Assembly: GCA_944322945.1 (NCBI GenBank)
Contig: CALUQN010000003.1
Coordinates: forward strand, 62,001 to 126,000
Origin: Candidatus Gastranaerophilales bacterium
Lineage (GTDB): Bacteria > Cyanobacteriota > Vampirovibrionia > Gastranaerophilales > Gastranaerophilaceae
Direction of reading: 5' to 3'
Length of the DNA: 64,000 nucleotides
A program made the position numbers and the translations under genes. Position 1 is the first letter of the stretch. Every line of letters begins with the position of its first letter. Shown here piece after piece: positions 3,400-30,736 of this stretch. The notes below the pieces were generated by a model. It was given only the letters and a program-made list of their open reading frames with translations. It searched no databases and was not told where the DNA came from.

Positions 3400-3929
3400 A
3401 ACAGTCCGATATTATAAAACTTGATTTAATGAAGTTTTTAAGATTTCAAAAGCAATATGATTGTGTTTGCACAGAGTGTGTAAACAATGCTGATATATCT
3501 GCAATTAAAAATCAAAAATTGATTGAAATCGAAATAAAAATCAGCAAATCTGACTTCAAAAATGAATTAAAACATAAGTCTTGGAAGCATGATAAATACA
3601 AAGACACACAAGCCCTGAAAAATACTGATTGGATGCGAATACCAAACAAATTTTTCTTCTGCGTGCCACAGGAAATGGAAGAATGGGCTTTGAAAGAAAT
3701 TGAAAATATCAATTTCAAATATGGGCTTATCGTATGGCAAGAAGGGCTTGTTTATATCCGGCGGCAAGCCTTACATCTTCATAATGATAAGCTAAACAAC
3801 TTTGTACTTATAGAATTTTGCAAAAGAATTACATCTGAATTAATTAATTTAAAAATTCAGACAAATACCGACAAACAAGAACTTGAAGCACTCAAAGAAG
3901 GGGTTATTAAGACAGAAGGCATTGAATAA
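3396..3929 (+). CDS. Possible PD-(D/E)XK-fold nuclease-like protein
   Basis: 177 residues, overlapping the previous gene by 4 bases. An early Asp (NNADISAI, Asp33) is followed by LIEIEIK (Glu46, Lys48), which matches the D...ExK layout of the PD-(D/E)XK fold as seen in MmcB/DUF-type repair proteins. Next comes a basic stretch with several Lys and His (KNELKHKSWKHDKYKD). I infer a DNA-binding or DNA-cleaving role from the motif only. A structure prediction would decide it. Confidence 0.6.
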   Translation: MKQSDIIKLDLMKFLRFQKQYDCVCTECVNNADISAIKNQKLIEIEIKISKSDFKNELKHKSWKHDKYKDTQALKNTDWMRIPNKFFFCVPQEMEEWALKEIENINFKYGLIVWQEGLVYIRRQALHLHNDKLNNFVLIEFCKRITSELINLKIQTNTDKQELEALKEGVIKTEGIE

Positions 3930-3949
3930 AAAGGAAGGAGAAAACACAA

Positions 3950-4429
3950 ATGAAAATCAAAGAACTACTTAAAAAGATTACAGGGCAAGACAAACTTGAC
4001 ATAATCATTGAAAATCAGAACAAAGAAAGCAAAATGAATGCAAGAATTATTCTTCAAACAAAATTTGAAGCAGAAAAAGCAAAAGGTGATGCACTACTTA
4101 TTGAACAGCAATACAAAGAAGAAATAAAACAAGTTGAAAAAAAACTTGAAGCAACTATTGATCAACAATATGCAGAAATTCAAAAATTAAGAACACAGTT
4201 AGAACATGCAACAAATAACAGAGTAGGCAAGTTTTATGTGTTCAATCCACAGCATGGGCAGCCACGCAAAATATATGACAGTTATGAAGCAGCAATGAAA
4301 GATGCTGAAAGTGTTGCCAAAATTTCAAAAGGGCAAAAAGTGTTTGTATTGAAAATAGTTTCAGGTGTTCAAATTTCAGAAAACTATGAAGATTATTCTT
4401 TGATACCTGAAGAAGAAATTCCATTTTAA
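3950..4429 (+). CDS. Coiled-coil hypothetical phage protein
   Basis: 159 residues from the ATG at 3950, with GGAAGGAG 10 bases upstream. Residues 1-90 look helical and heptad-like, rich in Lys, Glu and Gln. The C-terminal 70 residues form a small alpha/beta domain starting VGKFYVFNPQHGQPRK. I recognise no family. It belongs to a run of closely spaced small genes (2968-7331) that is probably one transcript. Confidence 0.7.
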   Translation: MKIKELLKKITGQDKLDIIIENQNKESKMNARIILQTKFEAEKAKGDALLIEQQYKEEIKQVEKKLEATIDQQYAEIQKLRTQLEHATNNRVGKFYVFNPQHGQPRKIYDSYEAAMKDAESVAKISKGQKVFVLKIVSGVQISENYEDYSLIPEEEIPF

Positions 4430-4441
4430 GGGGGTGATTAG

Positions 4442-5092
4442 ATGAGCAATTTTCAATGTGAAAGCTGCGGTGCAGTTTATATTGATAATGGAATAACAGG
4501 CTATGAAACAAAACAGTGCAAAACAACGGCTGATGTTATAAAAGGTTTAAATGAAAAAATTGTTCTTTTACAGAATATGAATAAAAGTTTGAATGAGTTA
4601 TTAAGTATAAAAGATGAAGCCATTACTGATTTAACGGCAGACAAAATTGAACTTAAAGAACAACTTTGTTCAAAAGAAAAAGAACTTTGCAATGCTTACA
4701 TGGAAGTAAATGCAGCAAATACTGCTGCGGCAGGGAATTTGTCATTAAGTCAACTTGCTGAAGATAAACTTCAAGCAGCAGTAAATCAATATAATGCAGT
4801 TGTACAGCAAAACAAAGAATTACAACAAGAATTGATTCAAACAAAAGAAAAAATTAAACCTTTTGCAGATGAATACTTCAGCGGTTTAACTTATTCAGAA
4901 ATTGCAGAACTTGCAAAAAAATCAATCAGACTTACAAAAGAACATTGTTCTGATTTACGCAAAATTGAAATATTTGAAACCGCATTACAAGAAATAAGCA
5001 CAAATTCTGATTGTGTTTGTTCATTAGATGACACATGCCAGCCAATGAGAATTGCGGCAAATGCACTTGCAAAAGGGGGTAAAAATGAGTAA
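4442..5092 (+). CDS. Hypothetical protein with N-terminal CxxC and coiled coil
   Basis: 216 residues from the ATG at 4442, preceded by AAGGGGGTG. The N-terminus has a single CxxC (FQCESCGAVY), which looks like half a zinc ribbon, and a later Cys is spaced by about 16 residues. Residues 30-150 form a predicted coiled coil. The C-terminal part carries a second cysteine group (CVCSLDDTCQ). Its function is unknown. The stop overlaps the start of the ASCH gene by 8 bases. Confidence 0.7.
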   Translation: MSNFQCESCGAVYIDNGITGYETKQCKTTADVIKGLNEKIVLLQNMNKSLNELLSIKDEAITDLTADKIELKEQLCSKEKELCNAYMEVNAANTAAAGNLSLSQLAEDKLQAAVNQYNAVVQQNKELQQELIQTKEKIKPFADEYFSGLTYSEIAELAKKSIRLTKEHCSDLRKIEIFETALQEISTNSDCVCSLDDTCQPMRIAANALAKGGKNE

Positions 5093-5432
5093 AGAAAACA
5101 GGGTTCTTGATCTTGTGTTGAAAAGCGTGTGGTTCGATAAAATCAAAAACGGTGAAAAAAATATTGAATATCGAGAAGTGAAGAAAAGCTGGGCTTCAAG
5201 GATATTTGAAACAAAACCCGGAGAAAAAACAAAACCTGCGGTTGACAAAGTGCTTTTTTCAAAAGGCTATAACAGAAAAGAACAAATGCTTTTTGAAATA
5301 ACAAAAATTGAAGTCTTGCCTTCAGGGCTTGAAACTGATTTGCATATTGACAAACCAGTCTATGCAATACATTTGGGTGAACAGTTGAACATTGTAGAGT
5401 GGAAGAAGCAAGGGGGTAATAATGGCAAGTAA
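5085..5432 (+). CDS. ASCH-domain protein
   Basis: 115 residues from the ATG at 5085, with AGGGGGT 5 bases upstream; a longer frame from 5052 has no ribosome site. The N-terminal pattern, a beta strand (VLDLVLKSVWFDKIKNGEK) followed by IEYREVKKSW, is typical of the ASCH domain, a small PUA-like fold that binds RNA or modified nucleotides (family knowledge). Phages often carry ASCH proteins among their accessory genes, with unclear roles. A charged C-terminal tail follows. The next gene overlaps by 11 bases. Confidence 0.8.
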   Translation: MSKENRVLDLVLKSVWFDKIKNGEKNIEYREVKKSWASRIFETKPGEKTKPAVDKVLFSKGYNRKEQMLFEITKIEVLPSGLETDLHIDKPVYAIHLGEQLNIVEWKKQGGNNGK

Positions 5433-5904
5433 AGCAATTCAAAAATTAAGATATAAATTTTTTAAAGAATTTTGTCCTGAAAGATTATATGTTCGTTATC
5501 AAATAGTAAGCCCATATTATACGCAAGCACCTTCAAAAGAACGATTGATTCAGTGTGTTGAAGAAATTAAAAAACAAGGTAAAAAAGTCAAGATTGGTGA
5601 AGTTTGGTGGAGTATGCCAACGATAACCACAAGTCTTATGTTGCAAATAGAAGAAATTATTGCAATGCTTTTTAGAGGCAATAGTAATGATAAATTTTCA
5701 AATGGGCTTGAATACTTCATTCCTTCTAAAGATAAAACAATTTCAAAAGAAAATGGCTTTTATTACACTAAAAGCGGTAATTTTTGCAAACAACGAGATA
5801 TTACAATAGGTGGGAGAAGTCGAGAAGAAGCACTGTTAAGGCTATGTTTACATGATGACATCAAACCTTTTATAAAAAATGAAATTCAAAAATTATTTAG
5901 TTAA
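5422..5904 (+). CDS. Hypothetical basic phage protein
   Basis: 160 residues. The ATG at 5422 follows AGGGGGT at 5411 and lies inside the end of the ASCH gene, so the two are probably translated together. The N-terminus is strongly basic (KAIQKLRYKFFKEF). The C-terminal third has a GGRSREEALLRLCLHD helix. I recognise no family. Confidence 0.65.
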   Translation: MASKAIQKLRYKFFKEFCPERLYVRYQIVSPYYTQAPSKERLIQCVEEIKKQGKKVKIGEVWWSMPTITTSLMLQIEEIIAMLFRGNSNDKFSNGLEYFIPSKDKTISKENGFYYTKSGNFCKQRDITIGGRSREEALLRLCLHDDIKPFIKNEIQKLFS

Positions 5905-6877: not shown

Positions 6878-7123
6878 ATGGCAGAATTAACAGAACAGCA
6901 AATTGAACACTTCAGAAGATTGAATGCACAAGCAATGAAGGAAGTGATGACTGACAAAGGCAACATTGCTTTTTTAAATGCTTCAATTAAAAAATTTATT
7001 GATGATTTGAAGGAACAAAACAAAGAATGTGAGCCGGCAGCATATATGATGAGTGGTGCAATAATGGGTTACACACTTTGTTTGTATAACAAAGGGGGTG
7101 AAGGTGATGACAGCAGCACTTAA
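6878..7123 (+). CDS. Hypothetical small phage protein
   Basis: 81 residues from the ATG at 6878, with AAAGGAG 7 bases upstream. The N-terminal two thirds look helical (TEQQIEHFRRLNAQAMKEV), with a Gly/Met-rich end. No family recognised. The next gene starts within its 3' end. Confidence 0.6.
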   Translation: MAELTEQQIEHFRRLNAQAMKEVMTDKGNIAFLNASIKKFIDDLKEQNKECEPAAYMMSGAIMGYTLCLYNKGGEGDDSST

Positions 7124-8772: not shown

Positions 8773-10033
8773 TTGGACAAATTCAAAATGGTCAAGAAAA
8801 CACCTTGATTTAATGTTAAGGTGTTACGATGATTTAAAATTTTTTACACTTCTTTCAGGTTCAGTGCGTTCAGGTAAGACTGTAACACAGATTGCTAAAG
8901 CTGCGGCAGAACTAATTCCACAAAGAGCGGATAAAGGCAAGATTTTAATTTCAGGTAAATCAAAAGAAACGATTTACAACAATGTTTTGCTTGATCTAAT
9001 GGAATTATACGGCGGAAAAAAGCATTGTGATTATAATTCAACTGATGGCAGGCTTATTGTTGACAAGACGGTCTTAGGTTCAAAAAATGATGCTTATATA
9101 CGTGTTGCCGGTGCAAATAAAAAAGGCAATGAAGGGGCAATTTGGGGTGATACCTTTAGTTTGTGGCTTGCCGATGAATTGACGTTGCACACAAGGGCAT
9201 TTGTAAATCTTGCCATAACTCGTTTATCAGTAGAAAACAGCAAAATATTTGCAACAACTAACCCGGCAGACATTTTGCACTTCATATATACAGATTGGAT
9301 TGCAAACAAAGCAAAACAAGATGTTTTTGAATACTTGTTTTTTGAACTTACTGACAATCTTAATTTGCCTGAAGAATATATTGAACACGTCAAGGCATCT
9401 TTCACAGGTGTGTATTTTGACCGAATGATTAAGGGCTTATGGGTTATTGCTGAAGGTCTTGTATATCCTGAATTTGACAAAGACAAACATATTATAACCC
9501 CTGAAGAATTCAAACAGAATATTGCCAATGGTCTATATAAAGAATTCATTGGCGGTGTTGACTGGGGGTATTCAGCAGAAATGGCAGCAGGTGCATGGGG
9601 TGTTACAAGAAACAATGATTTTCATCTTGCTTCAGAGTTCTATTATAAAGGCAAACTTACTGCTGATGTAATTAATTGGTTCAAAGCACAACAAAAAGAA
9701 CTTGGAATTGATTTCAATTATATTTTTTGTGATTCAGCAGAACCTGACAGAATTGAAGAAATGCAACTTGCAAAATTAAATGCCTATGCTTCTGAAAAAG
9801 AAATTGCAGCCGGCTGTAATACAGTAAGGACTTGTTTTAAAAATGACAAAATAAGAATTGGCACAAATTGCCCAAATACTCAAAATGAACTTCTTACTTT
9901 ACGTTATCCACAAGAAGATGAACCGGGTTTTGGCAGCGAAACTGTTTTTATAGGAAAAGACCACGCTGCTGATGGGGTTTTGCGTTATCCAATCCACACA
10001 TATAAAAAAGAAATTTTGGGGCTTACATATTGA
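8765..10033 (+). CDS. terL: Terminase large subunit (packaging ATPase/nuclease)
   Basis: 422 residues. The ATPase part has a Walker A-like GSVRSGKT (32-39), a Walker B with Asp137-Glu138 (LWLADELT) and the coupling motif TTNPAD near 164. The RNase H-like nuclease part has Asp266 (GGVDWGYS), Asp323 (FCDSAEPD) and a C-terminal Asp pair in GKDHAADGVLRY. The layout fits the PBSX/Terminase_6 group. It cuts concatemeric DNA and drives it through the portal. It overlaps terS by 8 bases and the next gene by 4. Confidence 0.96.
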   Translation: MIDWTNSKWSRKHLDLMLRCYDDLKFFTLLSGSVRSGKTVTQIAKAAAELIPQRADKGKILISGKSKETIYNNVLLDLMELYGGKKHCDYNSTDGRLIVDKTVLGSKNDAYIRVAGANKKGNEGAIWGDTFSLWLADELTLHTRAFVNLAITRLSVENSKIFATTNPADILHFIYTDWIANKAKQDVFEYLFFELTDNLNLPEEYIEHVKASFTGVYFDRMIKGLWVIAEGLVYPEFDKDKHIITPEEFKQNIANGLYKEFIGGVDWGYSAEMAAGAWGVTRNNDFHLASEFYYKGKLTADVINWFKAQQKELGIDFNYIFCDSAEPDRIEEMQLAKLNAYASEKEIAAGCNTVRTCFKNDKIRIGTNCPNTQNELLTLRYPQEDEPGFGSETVFIGKDHAADGVLRYPIHTYKKEILGLTY

Positions 10034-27430: not shown

Positions 27431-28798
27431 ATGCAAAAAAGTATAAGCATTGCAGATGGCACTGGTGCTGAACTTCTTGAACAGCTAAACGGTGCATTTG
27501 AAACACTTGCAACTAATTTCACAGGTGGCACAGAACCACAGTTGACTTATGCCGGTATGGATTGGATGGATACCAGCGGCACAAATACAGTATGGAAAAG
27601 AAGAAGTGCAGACAATACAAGTTGGATTACAATGGGAACTTATGATGAAGATGGTTTTCACCCTTCAAACACTGTTTCTTCTGATGATTCTACTGTAACC
27701 AAAAAAGGCAATGTTTTTAATGGTGCAAATCAGCTTGTATTATTAAATTCTGAAGGTAAATTGCCCACACTGAATGGCAGTTTATTGACAAATTTGACAA
27801 TACCAACGAAAGCTGCAACAACACATTATTTGGAAGCAGGTTCTGACCATTCAAAAATATTAATAAAAGGCGGCACTTCTATTGAAGTAAGCACTTCTGA
27901 AGGCACAAAACTATTTCAAAATGTATCTGATACAGAATATAGTTTTACACAGCTTCTTGATGCTGGCACACCATTGCCGGGCAAAGATTATTCAATGTTT
28001 TTAGTTCTTGAAGATTCAGGAGATTTGGGGGTTAAGTTTTCATTAAACACAACAGCCCCTGAAGGTTATTCAATAAGCGATGTTTTAAGAATTGGCGGTT
28101 TCCACACAATGTGCTTGTCCATAACTTCAAGCAATGCCCCTTCTTCAACACATCCGGCAGTTGGATATAATTCAGGTGAAATAATTCCAAACAGTATTTG
28201 GGATAATTTACACCGTCCGAAATGTTCACCAAATGGAATGGCTTATTGTGATTTGCTTGATCTGTGGTGTGATATATACCCTCAAAGTGGTAAAGATGGG
28301 GCTGATACATCGGTCTATGGTGGCACAGCAGTTCATTCACGAGTTTGGGAAGATCATGCAAATGATATGCGGCTTGTTGGTAAAAGATTAATTTGGGATC
28401 ATGAATATTCAGTTCTTGCAGATGGTTCACCTGAAAAAGTTGCTGTAAAAGGGGCGGCACAACCAAACCCGGACACAACAGGCGGACACATGGCAACAAA
28501 TAATAAATATATGATAAGCAAATATTTTTTGTGGGAGATGGCTGGTTTAAGATGGTGCTGGCTTAACAATGTTTCAGCTAATGGCGGCAGTAATTGGAGT
28601 AACGCACAAGGGCTTTCAGGTGCTAAAGGGCAACTTTATGGGGCTTCTTATGCCTTGCTTGCTGGTGGTGGTTGGGCTAATTCCTCGTATTGCGGCTCTC
28701 GTTCTCGTCATGGTAATGTTTCTCGTGGTACGGTCGGTGCGCCTGACGGCGGTCGGGGCGTGTGTGAGCCGTTGAATGCTCGTGTAATCGTTGCTTGA
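27431..28798 (+). CDS. DGR target: tail fibre/receptor-binding protein with variable C-type-lectin-like end
   Basis: 455 residues from the ATG at 27431 with AAAGGAG upstream. Residues 1-60 are an attachment region with a DGTGAELLEQLNGAF start. The C-terminal 200 residues look like the C-type-lectin/FGE-like fold of DGR targets (GKRLIWDHEYSVLADG, FLWEMAGLRWCWLNN, LAGGGWANSSYCGSRSR, RGVC). The variable repeat covers codons of residues 408-446. Compared with the template, eight residues differ: seven template Asn codons now read Gly414, Ala416, His427, Val430, Gly436, Pro438, Asp439, and Ser441 now reads Gly. The framework Cys, Trp and Arg codons have no A at coding positions and are unchanged. 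Confidence 0.93.
   Translation: MQKSISIADGTGAELLEQLNGAFETLATNFTGGTEPQLTYAGMDWMDTSGTNTVWKRRSADNTSWITMGTYDEDGFHPSNTVSSDDSTVTKKGNVFNGANQLVLLNSEGKLPTLNGSLLTNLTIPTKAATTHYLEAGSDHSKILIKGGTSIEVSTSEGTKLFQNVSDTEYSFTQLLDAGTPLPGKDYSMFLVLEDSGDLGVKFSLNTTAPEGYSISDVLRIGGFHTMCLSITSSNAPSSTHPAVGYNSGEIIPNSIWDNLHRPKCSPNGMAYCDLLDLWCDIYPQSGKDGADTSVYGGTAVHSRVWEDHANDMRLVGKRLIWDHEYSVLADGSPEKVAVKGAAQPNPDTTGGHMATNNKYMISKYFLWEMAGLRWCWLNNVSANGGSNWSNAQGLSGAKGQLYGASYALLAGGGWANSSYCGSRSRHGNVSRGTVGAPDGGRGVCEPLNARVIVA
28651..28767 (+). repeat. DGR variable repeat (VR)
   Basis: 117 bases at the 3' end of the tail protein gene, matching the template at 28835-28951 without gaps. There are 14 differences and all fall where the template has A; 14 of the 23 template adenines are changed (8 to G, 5 to C, 1 to T) and none of the 94 other positions is. 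The GC-rich end CGGGGCGTGTGTGA is identical in both, as expected for the initiation-of-mutagenic-homology end. Confidence 0.95.
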
Positions 28799-28834
28799 TA
28801 AATCGGTCGCAAAATTTTTGGGTGGCTGGTCTAT

Positions 28835-28951
28835 TGCCTTGCTTGCTGGTGGTAATTGGAATAATTCATCGTATTGCGGCTCTCGTTCTCGTAATGGTAA
28901 TAATTCTCGTGGTACGGTCAATGCGAATAACGGCAGTCGGGGCGTGTGTGA
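28835..28951 (+). repeat. DGR template repeat (TR)
   Basis: Begins 36 bases after the stop of the target gene, same strand, offset 184 bases from VR. It is rich in AAT/AAC triplets in the target frame, which by A-to-N changes can give 15 or more amino acids and never a stop. It lies in a non-coding region; the open frame across it is a by-product of similarity to VR. It is transcribed as RNA and copied with errors at A by the reverse transcriptase encoded downstream (DGR mechanism, established). Confidence 0.95.
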
Positions 28952-29108
28952 TATAGGAAAAGTTTTTTGTGAGAAACTCCCTAGCTGGATCGGTTCACCT
29001 TGTCAATATCTCGTAAGAGTGCGGCAAAACACACAACGGAGTAAAAGCCTTTGTTAGTAGCGTAAGCGAAAGCAAGGGCTTTTTTCAGTACAAAAAAGAA
29101 ATGAAGAT
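28952..29108 (+). ncRNA. TR-to-RT spacer, probable structured part of the DGR RNA
   Basis: 157 bases without a gene. In the Bordetella phage DGR a spacer of about 140 bases between TR and RT is needed for cDNA priming (established). Here the spacer ends with a hairpin: 29043-29053 pairs with 29073-29083 over 11 bp with one wobble, its loop contains GC-GTAA-GC (a GNRA-like tetraloop), and a T run follows at 29080-29085. It could be a terminator, a structural part of the DGR RNA, or both. Confidence 0.6.
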
Positions 29109-30146
29109 ATGGTTAAGAAGTATAAGAATTTATGGCAGCAAATTGTTGATGATAACAATATTGCGTGGGCTTATCAAAAAGCCAAAAAGGGTAAAAGCAA
29201 ATATAATGCAGTGCGTTATATAGAAGATCACAAAGAAGAATGTTTGAAAGAGGTGAAAAGACTTCTTGTTGAACAAAAATTCACAACAGGTGCTTACAAA
29301 GAAAAAACGATAAAAGAACCCAAAGAACGGTTGATTTATGTATTGCCTTTTTATCCTGACAGAATAGTACAACATGCAATAATTAATGTTTTAGAACCCA
29401 TTTTTGTGAAGATGTTTATTAAAGACACCTATGCTTGCATCGAAAACAGGGGCATTCATAAGGGTTCTTTACGAATAATGGAATTTGTCCGAAAAAACAA
29501 ATATTGCTTAAAAATGGACATACGGAAGTTTTACCCTTCAATAAATCACAATATATTAATGCGAATTATTGAAAGAAAAATTGGTGATAAGCAACTTTTA
29601 AGAGTTTTAGAAGATATAGTGCGGTCAATACCGGGTGAAAAGAATGTGCCTATTGGTAACTTAACATCACAATGGTTTGGCAATTTGTATATGAATGAAC
29701 TGGATAAATTCATAAAGCACGAATTAAAAGTGAAATGTTATTTACGTTATTGTGATGATTTTGCACTATTTTCAAACGATAAAAAGCAGCTTAATGAAGC
29801 AAAACACCAAATAATAAAATTTCTTGATGAAGAATTAAAACTGACATTAAGCAAATGTGATTTATTTCAGACATCACAGGGTGTTGATTTCTTAGGGTAC
29901 AGACATTTTAAACATTACATTCTTATAAGAAAAAGCACTGTTAAAAGAGTTAAAAAACGACTTGTAAAAGTGAAAAAGGCTTATTTGGCAGGAAAGATGC
30001 CGCATGATAGATTCAGGTCTGTCATTGCATCAACTATTGGTTGGTTTAAGTGGGCAAATTCTCATAATTTAAGCCTTAGTTTGCAACTTGAAGAATTAAA
30101 GGAGATGGCAAAAGATGACAAACGCAACAACAAACAAGCCGCATAG
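29109..30146 (+). CDS. DGR reverse transcriptase
   Basis: 345 residues from the ATG at 29109. RT motifs in order: RLIYVLPFYPDRIVQHAI (75-91), motif A CLKMDIRKFYPS with Asp137, motif B IGNLTSQWF (182-190), the I/L-GxxxSQ form that marks DGR enzymes rather than group II introns (QG) or retrons, motif C YCDD at 214-217, and GVDFLGY at 258-264. There is no maturase, endonuclease or protease domain. It copies the template RNA with random bases opposite A, and the cDNA replaces the variable repeat. The ribosome site is weak. It overlaps the next gene by 32 bases. Confidence 0.95.
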   Translation: MVKKYKNLWQQIVDDNNIAWAYQKAKKGKSKYNAVRYIEDHKEECLKEVKRLLVEQKFTTGAYKEKTIKEPKERLIYVLPFYPDRIVQHAIINVLEPIFVKMFIKDTYACIENRGIHKGSLRIMEFVRKNKYCLKMDIRKFYPSINHNILMRIIERKIGDKQLLRVLEDIVRSIPGEKNVPIGNLTSQWFGNLYMNELDKFIKHELKVKCYLRYCDDFALFSNDKKQLNEAKHQIIKFLDEELKLTLSKCDLFQTSQGVDFLGYRHFKHYILIRKSTVKRVKKRLVKVKKAYLAGKMPHDRFRSVIASTIGWFKWANSHNLSLSLQLEELKEMAKDDKRNNKQAA

Positions 30147-30435
30147 ATTTTCAGAATTTGCGGTTATCAGAACAAAACTTGAAGGTGAAAGAGTTCAAAA
30201 CATTTCAGAAATTTTGAACAAAGAATTGATTTTTACAGGCTTCACTGTAAACAAAAGCAAAGTAAAAAATTGTGATAGGTATATCACAATTCAATTCAGA
30301 GAAGATGAAAACAGTCCATTAAGGGTGGCATTTACAGCTTCAACGGTCTTGATAGATCAATTTATTGCTTATGAAAACCAGTTGCCTTTTATTGCAACGA
30401 TTAAAAAAGTAAACAGATATATGACATTGACATAA
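30115..30435 (+). CDS. Small protein overlapping the DGR RT; possible accessory
   Basis: 106 residues. The ATG at 30115 follows AAAGGAG at about 30099 and lies 32 bases inside the RT gene, so translation is probably coupled. It is basic at the N-terminus and beta-rich (YITIQFRED, LRVAFTASTVLI, FIATIKKVNRYMTLT). The known DGR accessory protein Avd is an all-helical bundle, so this is not an obvious Avd; it looks more like a small beta-barrel, such as a nucleic-acid-binding protein (inference from pattern only). Confidence 0.6.
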   Translation: MTNATTNKPHRFSEFAVIRTKLEGERVQNISEILNKELIFTGFTVNKSKVKNCDRYITIQFREDENSPLRVAFTASTVLIDQFIAYENQLPFIATIKKVNRYMTLT

Positions 30436-30454: not shown

Positions 30455-30736
30455 ATGGCATTAAGTTTAAACACAAAGCAGGATTATCTTAATTATTTAA
30501 CAGTTAATCCTGAAGAAACAAAAAAAGCCCTTCAACTGCTTCTTGATACAAGATTTATTTGGCAAACAACAGCCATATTGGCAGCCAATGCAACAGGTGT
30601 TAATGATAGCACACATAGGGTTATTGGTGAAGAACCTGAAAGAATGCAGCAAGAATGGGTTGAAGATCCAAATGCAAAAATTTTCAGGTTAGGTTTTACA
30701 GTTACAGAAGTAGAGGGGTTAATAGAAAATGCTTAA
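30455..30736 (+). CDS. Hypothetical tail-region protein
   Basis: 93 residues from the ATG at 30455 with GGAAGGAG upstream. Mostly helical at the start (TKQDYLNYLTVNPEETKKALQLLLD), beta at the end. No family recognised. Its stop overlaps the next gene by 8 bases, and together with that gene it may encode tail-fibre accessory or chaperone proteins (position only). Confidence 0.6.
   Translation: MALSLNTKQDYLNYLTVNPEETKKALQLLLDTRFIWQTTAILAANATGVNDSTHRVIGEEPERMQQEWVEDPNAKIFRLGFTVTEVEGLIENA

Follow-up and report, generated by a model that had tools for sequence, protein, structure and literature searches.

Organisation of the locus

The stretch of DNA analysed here (the window, 64,000 nucleotides) holds in its left 33 kb a siphovirus prophage with terminase, portal, head, tape-measure, tail and endolysin genes, followed by chromosomal genes, one of which we take, from our reading of the sequence, to be homoserine kinase-like. 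The close relatives of the host genome (2.1 Mb, 98.6% complete) in the named genome collection are uncultured Candidatus Melainabacteria MAGs. The prophage match and these related genomes suggest that the diversity-generating retroelement (DGR) described below belongs to a siphovirus prophage whose host is an uncultured gut bacterium of the Melainabacteria; no close DNA relatives were found among annotated phages. The cassette is ordered as a tail gene with the variable repeat (VR), 37 bp, the template repeat (TR), a 157 bp RNA-like spacer, the reverse transcriptase (RT) gene, gene A and gene B, and its features are as follows:

27431..28798, + strand: DGR target, an Mtd-like phage tail / receptor-binding protein of 455 aa (Pfam mtd_2nd, 2.7e-13; PHROG tail protein, 2.5e-42; PDB Mtd 1yu3)
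28651..28767, + strand: VR of 117 bp in the 3' end of the target gene, covering approximately residues 408-446 (all 14 differences from the TR lie at its adenines)
28751..28772, + strand: IMH-like 3' end of the VR, ...GGTCGGGGCGTGTGTGA then GCC (putative boundaries)
28835..28951, + strand: TR, starting 37 bp past the target stop codon
28935..28957, + strand: IMH*-like 3' end of the TR, ...CAGTCGGGGCGTGTGTGATATAGG (putative boundaries)
28952..29108, + strand: structured spacer RNA between TR and RT (27-sequence alignment, covariation)
29109..30146, + strand: DGR reverse transcriptase, 345 aa, intact (RVT_1, 2.1e-21; PHROG_1423 RT, 5.1e-115; BPP-1 bRT 8ub7, 7.6e-50)
30115..30435, + strand: candidate accessory protein A, 106 aa, unannotated (32-bp overlap with the RT stop; predicted OB fold, pI 9.4)
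30455..30736, + strand: family B, 93 aa, second gene after the RT (after the RT in many relatives, upstream of the target in some)

Template and variable repeats

The initial annotation had described the VR and TR as 117-bp repeats that align without gaps and differ at 14 positions, every one of them an A in the TR (8 to G, 5 to C and 1 to T), and our realignment confirmed this. The TR contains 23 A and 94 non-A positions, none of the latter differs in the VR, and by the hypergeometric distribution chance alone would confine all 14 differences to the 23 adenines of the 117 bp with a probability of 1.8e-12. The codon changes that had been read from the alignment were likewise borne out, with AAY codons changed at residues 414, 416, 427, 430, 436, 438 and 439, an AGT codon at residue 441 and a silent change from TCA to TCC at residue 418. 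Identity between the repeats breaks off sharply at both ends; we found no further copies of either in the 2.1-Mb host genome, where a second target or second TR was also looked for and not found. As adjacent direct repeats, the TR and VR might be a tandem duplication that diverged through ordinary mutation and selection. This is exceedingly improbable given the confinement of all differences to adenines, and it is contradicted by near-identical pairs of related loci (see below), in which the VR changes and the flanks are almost unchanged.

In most relatives, the VR continues as GAGCC and the TR as GATAC or GATCC; the corresponding sequences in the window are GAGCC for the VR versus GATATAGG for the TR, a divergence of the IMH/IMH* type of BPP-1. 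A scan for perfect stems recovered the hairpin of BPP-1 but gave no perfect stem of at least 6 bp in the 77 bp 3' of the window VR. Covariation shows that the spacer between TR and RT has a conserved RNA fold. An alignment of 27 sequences supports three helices, with pairing in 90% of cells versus 67% in shuffles, 126 compensatory cells versus 44 in shuffles, and covariation of 0.70 versus 0.26; none of 500 shuffles reaches this score and every slid control falls far lower. By eye we also saw a fourth helix, pairing the end of the TR with the spacer, but dropped it because of its conflict with helix 1 in the alignment. In Rfam, the spacer gives only a sub-threshold match to the RT-14 RNA (26.6 bits, cut-off 48.1).

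Target protein and reverse transcriptase

The target protein matches Mtd (1yu3) over residues 133-448 (E 1.9e-17), and the alignment runs without gaps across the VR (Mtd residues 348-378), the numbering being shifted by 70. We defined a mutable residue as one whose codon has a TR adenine at position 1 or 2, and computed those of BPP-1 Mtd likewise from its own TR. Eleven of the 13 mutable residues of the target (414, 416, 417, 420, 427, 429, 430, 434, 436, 438, 439, 441 and 446) coincide after this shift with mutable residues of BPP-1 Mtd, and the variable surface would therefore be the same as that of Mtd. By homology, the target appears to carry the C-type-lectin fold usual for DGR targets, and the VR lies within its gene. 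The related locus L076 has at 3894-5696 a single 600-aa ORF, in which an ATPase-like N-terminus is in frame with the C-terminal half of an Mtd-like target; this reflects either extensive loss of DNA from within a prophage or a chimeric assembly.

The intact RT carries the motifs YCDD and IGNLTSQ, the latter conforming to the DGR-type (L/I/V)GxxxSQ, and among solved structures the BPP-1 DGR RT is its best relative (8ub7, E 7.6e-50). In our RT tree, it falls together with BPP-1 bRT, apart from the outgroups of group II type. A PADLOC reading of the protein as a 'defence RT' was rejected, as it reflects generic RT similarity that is equally strong for BPP-1 bRT. With an RT of this type and an Mtd-like target whose mutable codons coincide with those of Mtd, the earlier interpretation of the locus holds: the element is almost certainly a real DGR of a known kind.

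Activity in relatives and in this copy

A search with the RT gave 55 viral loci and nine genome loci, most with a recognisable TR/VR pair. The initial annotation had proposed A-restricted variation in related loci as a check, and such variation was found: 1865 of the 1904 TR/VR differences in the 109 loci with gene A fall on TR adenines. VR changes at non-A positions, which had been named as evidence against a DGR, do occur in relatives, where they make up about 2% of TR/VR differences, but they do not refute this assignment. The most direct evidence comes from 16 independent near-identical pairs (flank divergence < 2%, BPP-1-lineage pairs included), in which we counted 227 differences in 1,828 bp of VR, 211 of them at TR adenines, no differences in the TR and 43 in 28,237 bp of flanking DNA. 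A constant TR beside a variable VR, as in a DGR, is thus seen in these relatives; L077 and L227, both outside the set, are exceptions. L076 and L077, contigs of two Melainabacteria MAGs, differ at 19 positions in a shared 4,521 bp, all of them in the VR (15, of which 14 are at TR adenines) or the TR (4). The TR of the window and that of L076 are separated by six non-A differences and all six are mirrored exactly in the respective VRs, so the VR would be copied from the TR as a unit.

The earlier argument that the element must have been active because most of its adenines are already changed is weak when taken alone; activity in the lineage stands on the VR-only variation of relatives. We found no second isolate or copy of this exact element, so that we observe activity in the lineage and infer it for this copy. 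Judged from sequence, the machinery is genuine and recently active in the lineage, and presumably also in the window. The single copy seen would also fit a fossil cassette, whose VR diversified once long ago and is now static. We consider this unlikely, since the intact RT still has its active-site motif, every non-A change relative to L076 is common to the TR and VR of the window, and relatives at 81-86% RT identity, such as L076 and L077, are diversifying now. Copying is not always of the ungapped, A-only kind: the VR of L003 (ending at 5647) is one codon longer than its TR and has in addition a T to C change.

Changes in the template

The TR itself is described as remaining unaltered (PMC10907252). 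The TR of L077 (5732-5848) has GCTGCT where L076, L003 and the window have AATAAT, and its VR likewise has GCTGCT. These four TR adenine changes relative to L076 are accompanied by no other change outside the VR in the shared 4.5-kb stretch, and four ordinary TR mutations are therefore unlikely (about 2e-6 at a generous rate). L227, from the BPP-1/Avd lineage, is a weaker second case, in which TR positions 32-33 have changed from AA to GG relative to the near-identical L178-L181, with the same in the VR, plus one T to G. In both loci the cause may be cDNA integrating into the TR, VR-to-TR conversion or an assembly error. These cases raise the possibility that the constancy of templates is not strict.

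Absence of Avd and a candidate accessory protein

Avd is essential in BPP-1 (PMC12875486). A bAvd model (PF22296) that was positive on the BPP-1 control had no match in the whole host genome (98.6% complete) or in 35 viral records of the family, and Avd was found in none of 80 RT relatives (an RT-based sample). The cassette is not, then, of the BPP-1 type; the initial annotation had noted neither the lack of Avd nor the accessory gene linked to the RT. Among 66 loci found with the BPP-1 RT, 60 have Avd and none has gene A. Loci with A have a median of 74 bp between VR and TR, the site of avd in BPP-1, and loci with Avd a median of 424 bp. In the RT tree, the 36 tips with Avd form a single clade (0.935); its sister is the A-bearing lineage (0.986), within which A has been lost here and there. 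A host four-helix-bundle protein could in principle provide Avd in trans, and the host genome does encode one PF05635 protein, from a family that resembles Avd (PMC10053308). However, its gene is flanked by rimP- and nusA-like genes at a distant site from the DGR, and the protein scores below the cut-off against bAvd (E 0.0058); on location and score we rejected this protein, and we regard supply in trans as very unlikely.

Gene A belongs to a family of proteins of ~100 aa and ~12 kDa, encoded at the same place after the RT in most relatives. A adjoins the RT in 74 of 80 relatives from a separate RT-based sample. A profile scan of viral contigs with A itself gave 79 usable loci, 77 of which have a DGR RT on the same strand, the remaining two being truncated contigs; in these loci A usually starts no more than about 40 bp from where the RT match ends. 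Six loci have A before the TR and RT, which is the place of Avd, and in L081 it lies directly before the RT. The 50,697 annotated phage records contain A in two only, vir525 and ANMV-1, each time beside a DGR RT, and 99 related genomes contain it only in the two that carry this RT. An insertion of about 2.5 kb divides gene A of L029 into two parts (6989-7117 and 9686-9895).

Family A is not represented by any model in Pfam or NCBIfam; 12 of 32 members match PHROG_19665 weakly (function unassigned in PHROG). The ORFs near the RT have no HRDC or MutS-like Pfam match, and the element is thus not of the HRDC/MSL type. Structural models of two members (pLDDT 85.7 and 89.9) have strands 1-3, a helix and strands 4-5 (b-b-b-a-b-b). 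Their neighbours among solved folds are the OB domains of RuvBL2 DII, SSB, Rim1, PriB, RPA, Teb1 and HIN-200 (Z 4-7), OB being a common arrangement, and Foldseek gave no significant solved match (E > 0.05). A thus has a predicted OB fold and probably binds nucleic acid, with the proviso that the OB arrangement is no proof of binding. Its pI in the window (9.4) can be set beside that of Avd (9.6), within a family range of 5.8 to 10.1. When A was compared with viral fold models, three of the top six matches carried annotations as reverse transcriptase or intron proteins, which hints at RT-A fusions elsewhere; there were none among the loci fetched.

Of the 132 loci that have a TR/VR pair, 23 possess neither A nor Avd, so that roughly one in six of the lineage lacks both. 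Loci of this RT lineage without both include L034-L037, L055, L011, L022, L025, L030, L033, L038 and L043, some of which still have VR-only variation. Since L034-L037 vary in this way without A, A is not universally required. Family B (about 95 aa) comes after A in many loci and directly after the RT where A is missing; it was rejected as an accessory because its position is not tied to the RT.

It is possible, though we doubt it, that A is simply one of the conserved late genes of the phage, moving together with the tail module and unconnected with retrohoming, in an element whose RT needs no accessory. A does sit in a late operon by family B and other tail-type genes, and the variation at the VR in lineages without A fits this explanation. 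It accounts poorly, however, for the presence of an adjoining RT in all but the two truncated contigs when loci were found by A alone, and for the contact with the RT that is kept when A moves before the TR or directly before the RT. Family B has no such exclusivity, and the RT- and intron-annotated fold matches, with their hint of RT fusions, also argue for a tie between A and the RT. We therefore favour the view that A does the job of Avd in this lineage, which its linkage, its mutual exclusion with Avd and its predicted fold make probable. The mutual exclusion does not count as a series of independent events, since shared descent ties the accessory gene to the RT lineage.

Discussion

Our analysis suggests that the window very likely contains a functional-looking DGR of a temperate siphovirus, from an Avd-less lineage in which A probably replaces Avd. 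In the mechanism we propose, the TR and downstream RNA would be transcribed, and the spacer takes up the conserved fold that its covariation shows. The RT would then copy the TR RNA and misincorporate at adenines, a step whose footprint is visible in the repeats and whose biochemistry is known from BPP-1. The mutated cDNA would replace the VR at the 3' end of the Mtd-like tail gene, with the VR end (GGGGCGTGTGTGA-GCC) being recognised and the TR end (...GA-TATAGG) not. By homology, the changed residues would form the variable receptor-binding surface of Mtd, so that the phage could switch the host receptor that it binds. In the absence of Avd throughout the lineage, the OB-fold-like A would probably be its substitute, as a partner of the RT, the RNA or the cDNA, as linkage, exclusion and predicted fold suggest. 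More tentatively, since we hold it to be a little less likely than the alternative, this viral DGR lineage, sister to that of BPP-1, may combine Avd-less retrohoming, with a ~12-kDa OB-fold partner, with occasional adenine rewriting of the template, which would amount to a slow self-editing of its repertoire.

BPP-1 is, to our knowledge, the only DGR that has been studied in depth, and it is in the accessory protein that this lineage differs from that model. A large, natural and evidently active lineage without Avd makes the role and replaceability of Avd directly testable through one small gene. The cassette is also compact, with about 75 bp between VR and TR, and the phages of Melainabacteria gain a tail protein in which receptor change can be followed.

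Alternatives to Avd have been described before, namely HRDC in Treponema denticola (PMC4891356) and the MutS-like MSL. Like A, these are encoded by an RT-adjacent and often overlapping gene in place of avd; family A differs in having no match among the models of Pfam or NCBIfam. Wu et al. (2018), as related in PMC10053308, suggested a further, unnamed DGR-linked protein with no Pfam or CDD entry, and family A may be this protein. Paul et al. (2015, PMC4372165) name an 'Avd' ORF in the figure legend for ANMV-1, and in the nanoarchaeal DGRs of that paper the label rests on size and pI; family A members have no match to Avd models. The linkage of an A-type gene to DGRs may thus have been noticed already, in ANMV-1 and, as far as the account in PMC10053308 goes, by Wu et al. 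(2018). In the DGR literature searched, which covers Wu et al. (2018) through PMC10053308 only, we found no mention of the predicted OB fold, of the sharp separation from Avd or of activity without it, and a search by title or abstract gave nothing relevant on Melainabacteria DGRs or OB-fold DGR proteins.

The DGRs of the archaeal virus ANMV-1 and of virus vir525 resemble the window element in having related RTs, a family-A gene directly downstream and an Mtd-like target, and the RT of vir525 falls inside the A lineage in our tree; they differ in that their hosts are archaea. Compared with the BPP-1 DGR (mtd-avd-TR-brt), the window lineage has no avd between VR and TR and an A-family gene after the RT, the window shows no perfect target-side hairpin of the kind important in BPP-1, and its RT, about 33% identical, lies on the other side of a well-supported split. 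The two systems nevertheless share a target of the Mtd family with a C-type-lectin fold, a VR at its 3' end and nearly the same mutable residues, together with a TR upstream of the RT, A-specific mutagenesis, homologous RTs and a structured spacer.
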